A stretch of DNA of 32,008 bases from Armatimonadota bacterium (GTDB lineage: Bacteria; Armatimonadota; UBA5829). This document shows, one piece after another, positions 9,436 through 13,307 of the stretch. The translations under genes and the position numbers were made by a program. Where the stretch lies: assembly GCA_026392045.1 (NCBI GenBank), contig JAPLCU010000026.1:1-32008 (forward strand), given 5' to 3'. The first letter of the stretch is position 1; each line of letters opens with the position of its first letter. Below the pieces are notes generated by a model, which searched no databases, was not told the origin of the DNA, and was given only the letters and a program-made list of their open reading frames with translations.

Positions 9436-12342
9436 CTATTTCAATACCTTGATATCCCCCTGCACCCTCGGAAGAATCGCTCTGTATAGCGCACCTGAAA
9501 CCAACTCACAGGTGCTGATGCCGGTAACGGTAACGATTGCGCCGATGGCCGGTTGTGTGAGCGAACCAGACTTGACCCTGATTGCGATGGTTGGTTTGCT
9601 CTCTATATAGAAATATCCGCTTCCCTGAGATATCACCTTGCCCCAGGTCTTCACGAGTAATCCGATGTTATTTACCCCTCGCGCGCCTGTTATACCCGGA
9701 GTTTGCGCATTTAGAGCGCCTCCTCCCAGCCAATCTCCTCGGATTCCCAACGGCTTGAGGGCATATCCGGCAGTGCCCATCGCTATTGCTTCGCCAGCAT
9801 TGATTTGGCGTTCTCCATCTACTATAGAGACTGTGCCGATCACATCCTCCAGGTTTCCGACTGCCGTGCCAGCACTCGATACAACCTTTATGCCGCTGGC
9901 TCTATTGAGCTCTTGCATATAGAAGTAGCCGGGGAATACCGCGCTGACCACTTTGTCTGACAGCACGATCAAACTGCCTGCGGCAAGCTCTTTCGCCGCC
10001 GCAATCGAGGCCACTTCCTGAATCCCTCTGTCCTCTAACGTAGTGCACATTACTGAATTGGAGTAATTGACATAATCCACGAAGAAAAGCGCTCCAAAAC
10101 CGCCTGACATGAACAAGAATGGCCTGAGCTGCGGCGCCACATCCGAAACCAGCGCCGTCTCCGGATAACTCGTGACAACTCCGGCTGAGCTCACTGTAGT
10201 TATATAAATATCGCCGTTCGTGGCAGCGCTCGAGCCATAATCTTCCCAAACCAGCTGATACTTTTGACCATCCCAGCAAGCGCTCGGAGATTGCCTGGTC
10301 TTGCTTATGGTGTTTATGGCTATGCCCATAGAATCTATCAGGACACCGGCTGTGCTGAGTCGGCAAGCTGAGATCTTGGTGGATTCAGACCAAATCACGA
10401 AATAACTGCCGTTCCCATAGCATAAATTGGGGGCGTTCTGGCTGGATGTTGTCGTGGGGAATGCTATGCCGCTTGCATCTTGCACCGACCCGGCAGACGT
10501 AATCCTTGTCCCGCGGATGACCGGGGTTGCCCCTCGGTAATCTTCCCAGACAACCATATAATTGGCGCCATCGGTCGCTGCTTTCGGCAAGTTCTGATTC
10601 CCGACCGCCATCGAGATTGCCGTGGTAATTTGGGTGACTGTGCCTGTGGAGCTCACCATAGCGCCATAGAGATCATTGTAGTAATTCGGCGACAGGGCAT
10701 TTCGGCTGTCTTGCCAAACCACCAGGAAGTTAGTCTTGTTCGAGGCGACCGTAGGTCTGGATTGTTCCTCTGAAGCCGCAGATATTACTATCGGCGTGGT
10801 TCCTATCGGCATCATGTTGGCATCAAGAAATCGCCCGCGAATGTCCAAATCAGTGGTAATATATGCTTCGCTGCCGCGCCATGTTAGTAGATATTTGGAT
10901 CCGTTCCAGGCTATTGCCGGCTGAGTTTGGTTCCCTGATATGCCGCTTGTGAGATTTATGGGGGAAGCCGTCAAAACCTGTCCGGATTTGGAGACCCGCG
11001 CGCCCATAATATCCTGGCTGCTATTCACTATCTGCGACCATACAACCGCATACTCTGTGCCGTTATCTATCACAGCATAATCTTGCTGGCTATCGATTGC
11101 AGAAGAAATAAGCGTTCCGTTTGTATTTTGCGCCACGCCGGCATCCGTGACGGGGCTGAGCATTGCATCTGCTGAAGTTGCATTTAGCGTGCTCCAACAG
11201 ACAACGAAGCTGTTATTGGCGCCTGAGACCGCGTTTCCGGTTGCGTTTGCTGCGCCTGCGGATATGTATATCCCATTTGTATCCAAAATGCCGCCATTTG
11301 TGGTAAGACGGGCCCCTTTGATACGTCGATCAGAGCCATTGCGCCAGCAGACAAGTATTTTGCTGCCGTTATAACCGATGGACGGTGATTCCTGGTCGCC
11401 GGTCACCTTGCAGAGCGCTATTCCACCCTTATCTTGGACGCTTCCAGTTGAGCTGACTCTTGCAGCATAAATGTCGGGGTGCAGTGAATCGTTCCTGAAG
11501 TCTTCCCAAGTCACTGCCCACGAACTCCCGAACGCGCATATCCTGGGGATATGCTGTTTCCTTGCTGCGCCGGTTACGCCGTCTGTGGCATTGGATATCA
11601 AAATATCCGAGCCTGTGCGAACACCGCTCTTCGAAACACGCACGCCGTAAATGTCCGTATCGGTGGACACCATATTTCGGTAATCGCGCCATACCACCAA
11701 GTGGGTTGAGCCGTTATATGCCACATCCGGCATCTCTTCATTGTCTGCGCGTGTAGCGATGCCGTAGGCCTTGCCGACAGATCCATCCGCGCCTACTTTG
11801 CAGCCATAGATATCCGGTGATGCTCCGCGAGAATCTTGCCATACCACCAGAGCGCCCGCGCCGTCGCCTGCTAGGCGCGGATAGGTTTGGCCTCCTGTAG
11901 CGCCGGAAACCAATATGCCTTGCGGTTCCAAAACTTCACCGGCGGTTGTAACTCTGCAGGCATATATATGCTGCAGAGGCCCGCGCCTGTCCCCCCAAAC
12001 GACCATATACTTTTGACCGTCCCATGCCACGGCTGGCGTGACCTGATCACTGGCGTATGTACATATCGGAATTCCGGCGAGGTCCATAATCTGGCCGGTC
12101 AGGCTTATTCTGCATCCGTAGATATCGGCGCCGTTGGTTCCTCGGGTATCCTGCCAAACGGCAAAATAGCCGGTAGGGCTTGCTGCTAACGATATATATT
12201 CTTGAGATCCGATAGCCGAGCCAAACGTTGGGTTGATTGCGATCTGAGGCCCAACTGTAGCCGCCAACACCTCGCACCCCATGATTAAAAGCCCGACAAT
12301 CAGCATCGCTGCCCGACGGGCGCTTGCACACATTTTCATCAT
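9436..12342 (-). CDS. Large secreted repeat protein with C-terminal OB-like modules
   Basis: This 968-residue exported protein has a signal peptide (basic MMKMCASARRAA, hydrophobic MLIVGLLIMGCEVLAA). Most of the protein is about a dozen degenerate repeats of roughly 50-60 residues, each with a core such as YMVVWEDYRG, a DIYGARVSSAG turn and a P.VAWNGSKYLVVW strand. This suggests a beta-propeller or stacked-sheet fold. The last 200 residues hold two similar modules (GYFYMQELNRASGIKV...GTVS and GYFYIESKPTIAIRV...VTVTGIS) resembling OB folds seen in secreted proteins of this kind. No catalytic motif is visible; surface binding or adhesion is possible. The ATG at 12342 has AGGAGG 9 bases upstream. 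Confidence 0.75.
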   Translation of the reverse strand: MMKMCASARRAAMLIVGLLIMGCEVLAATVGPQIAINPTFGSAIGSQEYISLAASPTGYFAVWQDTRGTNGADIYGCRISLTGQIMDLAGIPICTYASDQVTPAVAWDGQKYMVVWGDRRGPLQHIYACRVTTAGEVLEPQGILVSGATGGQTYPRLAGDGAGALVVWQDSRGASPDIYGCKVGADGSVGKAYGIATRADNEEMPDVAYNGSTHLVVWRDYRNMVSTDTDIYGVRVSKSGVRTGSDILISNATDGVTGAARKQHIPRICAFGSSWAVTWEDFRNDSLHPDIYAARVSSTGSVQDKGGIALCKVTGDQESPSIGYNGSKILVCWRNGSDRRIKGARLTTNGGILDTNGIYISAGAANATGNAVSGANNSFVVCWSTLNATSADAMLSPVTDAGVAQNTNGTLISSAIDSQQDYAVIDNGTEYAVVWSQIVNSSQDIMGARVSKSGQVLTASPINLTSGISGNQTQPAIAWNGSKYLLTWRGSEAYITTDLDIRGRFLDANMMPIGTTPIVISAASEEQSRPTVASNKTNFLVVWQDSRNALSPNYYNDLYGAMVSSTGTVTQITTAISMAVGNQNLPKAATDGANYMVVWEDYRGATPVIRGTRITSAGSVQDASGIAFPTTTSSQNAPNLCYGNGSYFVIWSESTKISACRLSTAGVLIDSMGIAINTISKTRQSPSACWDGQKYQLVWEDYGSSAATNGDIYITTVSSAGVVTSYPETALVSDVAPQLRPFLFMSGGFGALFFVDYVNYSNSVMCTTLEDRGIQEVASIAAAKELAAGSLIVLSDKVVSAVFPGYFYMQELNRASGIKVVSSAGTAVGNLEDVIGTVSIVDGERQINAGEAIAMGTAGYALKPLGIRGDWLGGGALNAQTPGITGARGVNNIGLLVKTWGKVISQGSGYFYIESKPTIAIRVKSGSLTQPAIGAIVTVTGISTCELVSGALYRAILPRVQGDIKVLK

Positions 12343-12524: not shown

Positions 12525-12587
12525 CTGTAACAGAGTTATACCCGCTTGCCCGCCATGGAAACCCAACATTTGAATTATTTGTTACAG
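12525..12587. promoter_or_regulatory. Pair of inverted CTGTAACA sites, candidate activator binding sites
   Basis: CTGTAACAG (12525-12533) and TGTTACAG (12580-12587) are inverted copies centred roughly 160 and 105 bases before the predicted sigma-54 start. That is the distance at which enhancer-binding activators of sigma-54 usually act. Assignment to an activator is inference. Confidence 0.4.
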
Positions 12588-12659
12588 CAGGGCTACACCT
12601 CTACTGTGCAAAAATATTGCATAATTTAGCACGCTCAATGGCCTTATCTCAGGCGGAAA

Positions 12660-12676
12660 CTGGCACGTATCTTGCA
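12660..12676 (+). promoter_or_regulatory. Sigma-54 (RpoN) promoter of the PEP-CTERM gene
   Basis: CTGGCACGTATCTTGCA matches the YTGGCACGrNNNTTGCW consensus at all fixed positions except the single R. The GG (12662-12663) and GC (12674-12675) are in the required -24/-12 spacing. Transcription would start near 12687, about 96 bases before the PEP-CTERM start codon. Confidence 0.8.
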
Positions 12677-12782
12677 CCTACTGGTCAAGTGGCAACGAAA
12701 GTGTGACAGATGAGATAACTTATTGATGGGCTAGCATTGCAGAACAAATTCCCAATACAGCAAGCAAGGAGGCAGAAATTAA

Positions 12783-13307
12783 ATGCGCATACTACTAACA
12801 GCCATCGCGGTTCTCAGCGCAACCGCATGTGTCTCAAAAATGGCCTCGTGCCAGACAGGTATTCAGCCATACAGCGCGATGTTTATTGGTAATCAGGTAA
12901 ATGGCACGAACCTATGGAACTACACGCTTATAAATACAAGCGAGAGCAATGTATATACCGTGATCCTCGTGCAGTTAGAGGTGGACGAGCTGACACAAAT
13001 AATAGAAGCTCCGAATGTGGCAGGATGGTATGTAGACCCAACCGTTCCAAATTTCGTGACTTGGGCAAGCAAGGACGATGGACTCATGGCAGGTCAGTCT
13101 GTGACTGATTTTGCCATAGAGTTCTCTAAGAAACCCGAGTTTCAGAACTGGACTGCAATGTTCAACAATATCGACGATCCTGGCGAATGCCCATCAGATA
13201 GCGGGGTTGTGCTCAATGCGAGCGCTGTCCCCGAACCTACCGGATTGGCTTCGTTTGCGGTCGGCCTGATATCGTTTTTTGGAATTCTGAAAAGAAGACG
13301 CGCCTGA
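12783..13307 (+). CDS. PEP-CTERM sorting-domain protein
   Basis: This 174-residue exported protein has an N-terminal signal peptide (MRILLTAIAVLSATACVSKMASC) and a C-terminal sorting signal: VPEP at 149-152, hydrophobic helix GLASFAVGLISFFGIL, then KRRR. PEP-CTERM proteins are processed by an exosortase in Gram-negative bacteria and are often linked to exopolysaccharide and flocs. The 120-residue middle (LWNYTLINTSESNVYTVILVQLE...) is beta-rich and of unknown function. AAGGAGG (12766-12772) is 10 bases upstream of the ATG. A sigma-54 promoter precedes it, consistent with the RpoN-dependent control known for several PEP-CTERM genes. No exosortase gene is in this window. Confidence 0.88.
   Translation: MRILLTAIAVLSATACVSKMASCQTGIQPYSAMFIGNQVNGTNLWNYTLINTSESNVYTVILVQLEVDELTQIIEAPNVAGWYVDPTVPNFVTWASKDDGLMAGQSVTDFAIEFSKKPEFQNWTAMFNNIDDPGECPSDSGVVLNASAVPEPTGLASFAVGLISFFGILKRRRA

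Follow-up and report, generated by a model that had tools for sequence, protein, structure and literature searches.

Is the PEP-CTERM gene in this window (the whole stretch of DNA analysed, 32,008 nt) under sigma-54 control, and if so, through which activator? In Proteobacteria, control of PEP-CTERM genes by PrsK/PrsR together with RpoN has been proposed (Haft 2006, PMC1569441; PMC9850573), and pepA is RpoN-dependent (PMC9850573). An earlier note on this DNA suggested the same circuit here, with two inverted dyads upstream of the gene as candidate binding sites for the activator.

A sigma-54 promoter and the regulon to which it belongs

The sequence CTGGCACGTATCTTGCA spans positions 12660-12676 of the plus strand and holds, inside the pattern TGGCACGN4TTGCW, the GG-N10-GC spacing of a -24/-12 element. 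This pattern has one exact match in the window and nine in the 3.55 Mb genome, against one match in the genome for the reversed control pattern. The site ends 107 nt upstream of the gene, which starts with the ATG at 12783. Orthologs of the gene were found in five relatives of the same family (34-44% protein identity). In four of them (G002, G007, G013 and G010) the promoter is kept 128-130 nt ahead of the ATG in the form TGGCACG[TC]ATCTTGCAC, and in the G011 ortholog it is degraded to TGGCATCTATCTTGCAC. The window protein ends in VPEPTGLASFAVGLISFFGILKRRRA, and its residues 149-173, with a C-terminal PEP motif, a transmembrane segment and a basic motif, score 20.0 bits with TIGR02595 (cut-off 16). 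The description of the site as a textbook -24/-12 element before a PEP-CTERM gene is thus upheld by the exact consensus, the orthologs and the domain model. Because the element recurs at the same distance in orthologs and before other PEP-CTERM genes, it is, on sequence grounds, a real sigma-54 promoter, far beyond chance. Within the ortholog group, the predicted leader also shares two elements, TGTGACAG at 12702-12709 and TTATTGATGGGC.AGCA at 12720-12736.

Table 1. Coordinates of the features discussed (window positions unless a contig or locus is named).
Feature	Position	Strand	Remarks
Sigma-54 (-24/-12) promoter TGGCACG-TATC-TTGCA	12661-12676	+	Exact consensus; predicted transcription start ~12687
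PEP-CTERM protein gene, 174 aa, predicted target of the promoter	12783-13307	+	TIGR02595 above cut-off; orthologs in five same-family genomes
PEP-CTERM sorting signal VPEPTGLASFAVGLISFFGILKRRR	13227-13301	+	Residues 149-173
Predicted 5' leader with conserved TGTGACAG (12702-12709) and TTATTGATGGGCTAGCA (12720-12736)	12687-12782	+	Alignment of six orthologous regions
CTCAGGCG immediately 5' of the -24 element	12648-12655	+	Conserved within the window-gene ortholog group
Left dyad CTGTAACA	12525-12532	.	Judged chance
Right dyad TGTTACAG	12580-12587	.	Judged chance
Conserved block GAGTTATACCCG...GCC..GGAAACC between the dyads	12533-12564	-	ATACCC invariant in six species
Small-RNA gene	G000:C123:69620-69487	-	Sigma-54 site, anti-Shine-Dalgarno core, intrinsic terminator
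Conserved CACAACAC-hairpin-Shine-Dalgarno leader	L335, L344, L350, L355, L358; L336-L338, L340, L348, L351-L353		Mostly PEP-CTERM mRNAs without sigma-54 promoters

Seven of the genome's nine exact sites lie before PEP-CTERM genes, six of which are complete (contigs C87, C95, C102, C111, C135 and C142) and one of which is a paralog cut by a contig end (C173); the remaining two lie before a small-RNA gene (C123) and inside a gene (C176). The genome encodes about 30 PEP-CTERM genes and one exosortase (C81, 177 bits), which has a fused EpsI-like domain and is located in an exopolysaccharide locus. Across 28 genomes of the class, exact sites sum to 174 and control sites to 21. A rough, automatic classification of 76 sites of relatives placed 31 before PEP-CTERM genes (at least one of these, L210, looks like a small-RNA gene) and called 21 small-RNA-like, 6 flagellar-type and 18 other or in-gene. 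Sites and sigma factor disappear together: G004, G005, G009, G012 and G024 have no RpoN above the cut-off and zero exact sites and, with the exception of G005, no exosortase either. G025 (69% complete), with four sites and no RpoN found, is an exception to this co-occurrence. In other classes of the phylum, exact sites are mostly in-gene or chance-like, apart from G030. Judged by these sequence comparisons, the site is part of a class-wide sigma-54 regulon that comprises PEP-CTERM and small-RNA genes and also, in several genomes, the gene of a receiver-PilZ regulator. RpoN-type control of PEP-CTERM genes, as the earlier note had supposed, is accordingly supported here in the form of a predicted regulon conserved across the class.

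Two RpoN paralogs and an activator without a DNA-binding domain

Both rpoN and exosortase, for which the earlier note had recommended a search, are present, the former in two copies; since the genome is in 206 contigs, other genes may be missing from the assembly. A tree separates RpoN1 from RpoN2, and RpoN1 is the only kind in the single-RpoN genomes G017-G021 and G023. RpoN2 sits with flgB, flgC, fliE, fliF and fliG or with chemotaxis genes (neighbours recognised by eye), and sites ahead of flgB end in AATTGCT. Among the classified sites of relatives, TTGCA is found in 31/31 PEP sites and in 0/6 flagellar-type sites, the latter row being partly circular because flagellar-type was defined by the AATTGCT ending. 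Independently of this classification, the share of TTGCT sites is lower in single-RpoN genomes (3/58) than in double-RpoN genomes (14/45; p = 8e-4). The distinction between promoters is not absolute, as a PEP-CTERM site of this genome (C102) carries TTGCT. RpoN2 would then be the flagellar factor, having a separate activator and promoters that can be told apart (AATTGCT versus mostly TTGCA). Paralogous RpoNs elsewhere have similar promoter splits near -12 (PMC3162934). For example, Rhodobacter sphaeroides RpoN1/RpoN2 are likewise two sigma-54 factors with promoters differing near the -12 element (PMC3162934), whereas the split here appears to run between exosortase substrates and flagella, in an unrelated lineage.

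The genome encodes two canonical sigma-54 activators, A1 (receiver, AAA+ and Fis HTH domains) and A2 (receiver and AAA+ domains, no HTH). Orthologs of A1 occur in exactly the 16 class genomes with two RpoNs and are usually beside RpoN2. In this genome A1 is on the same contig as RpoN1, 11 kb away. All class genomes with RpoN1 have A2, as does G025, and in the single-RpoN genomes G018, G019, G020, G021 and G023 no other sigma-54 activator was detected. From this co-occurrence we infer that A2 serves RpoN1. None of 15 A2 proteins has an HTH or other DNA-binding domain (0/15), the A2 motif is GSFTGA rather than GAFTGA, and in most loci read A2 adjoins a large GAF histidine kinase. Sigma-54 sites were seen directly 5' of receiver-PilZ genes at G000:C88:9973 (L030, L076), L180 and L323, and a similar receiver-PilZ gene follows A2 in G020, G022, G026 and G027; a link to c-di-GMP is therefore suggested. 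As a separate observation, L077:3362-5302(-) encodes a fusion of a sigma-54 AAA+ domain with a Schlafen AlbA_2 domain, adjoining a 1496-aa protein.

Activators of this build are known. FlgR of Helicobacter and CtcC of Chlamydia are AtoC-like proteins with receiver and AAA+ domains and no DNA-binding domain (PMC3162934, PMC7482065), and FlgR works without an enhancer according to PMC3162934, which refers for this to its reference B179. Unlike them, A2 is predicted to serve exosortase substrates and is associated with a large GAF kinase, in some genomes also with the receiver-PilZ gene, and here another RpoN-activator pair appears to run the flagella. Since A2 has no DNA-binding domain, enhancer sites are not expected.

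The upstream regions are consistent with this expectation. The two inverted dyads reported in the earlier note are present, the left one lying about 160 and the right one about 105 bases ahead of the predicted transcription start, at distances of 258 and 203 bases from the ATG. An inverted pair of 8-mers spaced in this way, however, arises in 433/5000 shuffles of the region and in 79/531 windows of equal length. The CTGTAACA dyads were found in none of the orthologous or homologous upstream regions compared, and none was found in the 250 bases upstream of the eight further sigma-54 sites of this genome that were compared, so that their expected recurrence before other PEP-CTERM genes failed to appear. 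Being at chance level and missing from orthologs and from these eight promoters, the dyads are unsupported as activator sites. TGTNACA was also rejected as a shared site: its three copies in the window cluster near the promoter and none lies within 250 bases upstream of the other sigma-54 promoters examined. Shared 7-mers in the upstream regions of the nine sites show no excess over shuffles, and TTTACA, with which the PrsR motif ends (Haft 2006, PMC1569441), was not found upstream of the nine sites. An activator of the FlgR/CtcC build would account for the failure to find a common upstream element.

Two readings with a DNA-bound activator have to be weighed against activation by A2. In the classical one, a Fis-type response regulator would bind the CTGTAACA dyads as an enhancer and activate RpoN at 12661, as proposed for proteobacterial PEP-CTERM genes (PMC1569441, PMC9850573), and A1, a Fis-type activator with a kinase, could be its candidate. 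Yet no protein reaches the cut-off of either curated model. With the PrsR model (TIGR02915, cut-off 502.6), under which the best protein in the genome stays below the cut-off, A1 scores 414.2 and A2 369.8; with the PrsK model (TIGR02916, cut-off 300), the two activator-linked kinases, the only ones scored, reach 91 and 101 bits. The dyads fare as described above, A1 tracks RpoN2 and the flagellar genes, single-RpoN genomes that have kept the regulon lack A1, and the activator that does track the regulon has no DNA-binding domain. We therefore do not retain the PrsK/PrsR circuit and regard this reading as highly improbable. Alternatively, in genomes with two RpoNs, A1 might activate PEP-CTERM promoters from an upstream site that is degenerate or far away, for example the GTATACCC block at 12533-12564. 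The block is conserved in six species, and A1 and RpoN1 share a contig here. Against this, the block is clear only in the window-gene ortholog group, with a partial copy at C142, no 7-mer is common to the nine upstream regions beyond shuffles, and the regulon is kept in relatives without A1. A divergent gene starts close by in all six species, and the other strand of the block reads, by eye, as GTTTnC-N13-GGGTAT, a -35/-10 pair for that gene. The block is for these reasons most likely the promoter of the divergent gene and less likely a sigma-54 upstream element, and activation through A1 seems improbable. As a general upstream element the GTATACCC block was rejected, having been seen only in the window-gene ortholog group and loosely at C142. 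By eye, the block (minus strand) resembles a SigB-type promoter for the gene at 9436-12342; a search of the divergent gene's leader for known structured RNAs gave no Rfam match.

Activation by A2 without a DNA site is the reading with which we continue. The system resembles the proteobacterial PEP-CTERM/EpsH regulon (PMC1569441, PMC9850573) in that PEP-CTERM genes stand singly, each preceded by a long intergenic region with a -24/-12 promoter, that an exosortase occurs with an exopolysaccharide locus, and that a two-component system is combined with RpoN. It differs in having no PrsK/PrsR by curated models, no TTTACA motif and an activator without a DNA-binding domain, and in its two apparently specialised RpoNs and a putative small-RNA arm.

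A putative small-RNA family and the PEP-CTERM leaders it may pair with

No ORF was found 3' of the C123 site, and a strong terminator follows about 100 nt downstream. The corresponding RNA has two copies in this genome, one of which (C7) has no -12 GC. Homologs of promoter and RNA were found in 10 relatives of the order at E < 1e-4 (G002, G003, G007, G008, G010, G011, G013, G014, G015 and G016); G013 carries two copies and G011 three in tandem. More divergent small RNAs of the same plan occur in G017-G022, in tandem in G020. Other loci of the family are L312, L160, L176, L209 and L210. The common plan begins with a sigma-54 promoter, in most cases followed by a 5' hairpin; then come the core CUUUUUCUCCUUCCUUAAAGUGUUGUGG, a variable hairpin and a terminator in which compensatory changes are seen. 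No match to Rfam was obtained at gathering score, either with one copy or with five loci in a permissive search. Membership in RF00519 (suhB/MmgR, an alphaproteobacterial small RNA) was rejected, as the weak similarity is confined to two G020 copies, at 23 bits against a gathering score of 41. The predicted sigma-54-driven family is apparently undescribed. In plan it is like Qrr of Vibrio, short structured sigma-54-dependent RNAs that can be present in more than one copy, expose a core for pairing and end in an intrinsic terminator. Unlike Qrr, the small RNA here has no Rfam gathering match, and its core, an anti-Shine-Dalgarno stretch, is complementary to the leaders of PEP-CTERM mRNAs.

This complementarity was seen when 583 kb of the genome were scanned for duplexes with the small RNA: PEP-CTERM starts are among the best matches before start codons, the antisense of the small-RNA genes themselves aside. 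The matched mRNAs have no sigma-54 promoter, and their leader consists of CACAACAC, a small hairpin and the Shine-Dalgarno sequence. A CACAACA-type box is found in 11/19 non-sigma-54 PEP-CTERM leaders, 0/8 sigma-54 ones and 5/274 other genes (p = 1e-11), figures to be read with the split into set A and set B having been made after the duplex matches were seen, and with the 11/19 not all independent because the set-B leaders of this genome include several paralogs. On average, the duplexes exceed background in strength by 7.4 kcal/mol (excess -7.4, versus -0.34, sd 0.84, for shuffled cores), and at C88 only the hairpin, exactly looped out, interrupts the pairing. A leader model built on five genes finds the leader in G002, G006, G014 and G017, mostly before PEP-CTERM genes, and also matches small-RNA genes on their antisense strand. 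Covariation supports the leader hairpin (94.7% of cells paired, four two-sided changes, 0/500 shuffles), in an alignment that was fitted to the model. In G019, the small RNA matches the PEP-CTERM leaders of four genes (p = 0.002), which is only suggestive as several non-PEP genes score higher.

The complementarity could be real and have another role, the small RNA activating or stabilising the mRNAs or being a sponge, or the box serving primarily as a protein-binding site. The conserved hairpin loop CCGAAGAGAG would fit such a role, as would G006 and G017, where box and hairpin are conserved and no small RNA with GUGUUGUGG was found. The pairing nevertheless covers the Shine-Dalgarno sequence and is broken, in the best case, only by the looped-out hairpin, which is the usual arrangement for blocking initiation; we consider another role rather unlikely.

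Translational silencing is thus the role we assign to the pairing in the switch that we propose. Phylogenetic profile and domain anatomy suggest that the GAF-domain histidine kinase would phosphorylate its neighbour A2, which would remodel the RpoN1 holoenzyme from solution, with no enhancer required at 12525-12587. Complementarity and conservation suggest that the same activation would yield a small RNA of roughly 80-125 nt. Its core CUCCUUCC...GUGUUGUGG would pair with the Shine-Dalgarno sequence and the CACAACAC box of non-sigma-54 PEP-CTERM mRNAs (predicted pairs GUGUUGUGG/CCACAACAC and CUCCUUCC/GGAAGGAG), looping out the small leader hairpin and blocking translation. Repression rather than activation is expected because the Shine-Dalgarno sequence would be occluded. 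Sigma-54 would directly activate one PEP-CTERM set and repress another through the small RNA, so that a signal would swap one set of surface proteins for another.

We hold with good confidence that the site at 12661-12676 is an RpoN1 promoter of an exosortase-sorted PEP-CTERM protein in a class-wide regulon with A2 activation and a small-RNA arm. With more reserve, we lean towards the fuller reading that this regulon reprogrammes exosortase cargo, with direct promoters on one set, a new sigma-54-dependent, multicopy small-RNA family silencing another by bipartite pairing across a looped-out leader hairpin, and a DNA-site-free activator with a dedicated RpoN paralog as the driver. In the literature searched, sigma-54 control of PEP-CTERM genes is described for Proteobacteria and the PrsK/PrsR pair, and no small RNA acting on exosortase substrates was found. 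Here, another lineage appears to run the same surface-sorting system with a different type of activator, a dedicated RpoN and small RNAs targeting cargo mRNAs. The anatomy gives direct predictions as to which genes should rise, which should fall and which bases should pair.

Related sites elsewhere in the genome and phylum

Near-identical copies of TGGATGAGTTTGGCACGAAATGTGCAAACTGT are found about 190-210 nt before large secreted proteins at L012, L079, L082 and L087 (contigs C27, C101, C132 and C200). These proteins are 1203, 1549 and 1740 aa long, with a shorter one at C27, and TGGATGAGTTTGGCACGAAATGTGCAAACTGT is possibly a variant sigma-54 promoter with GTGCA for TTGCA. Elsewhere in the phylum, in G030 (L128, L199), sigma-54 sites lie before proteins whose ending, PDASTWMLFLSGMPAVL..RRKR, appears to be a C-terminal sorting signal of another kind.
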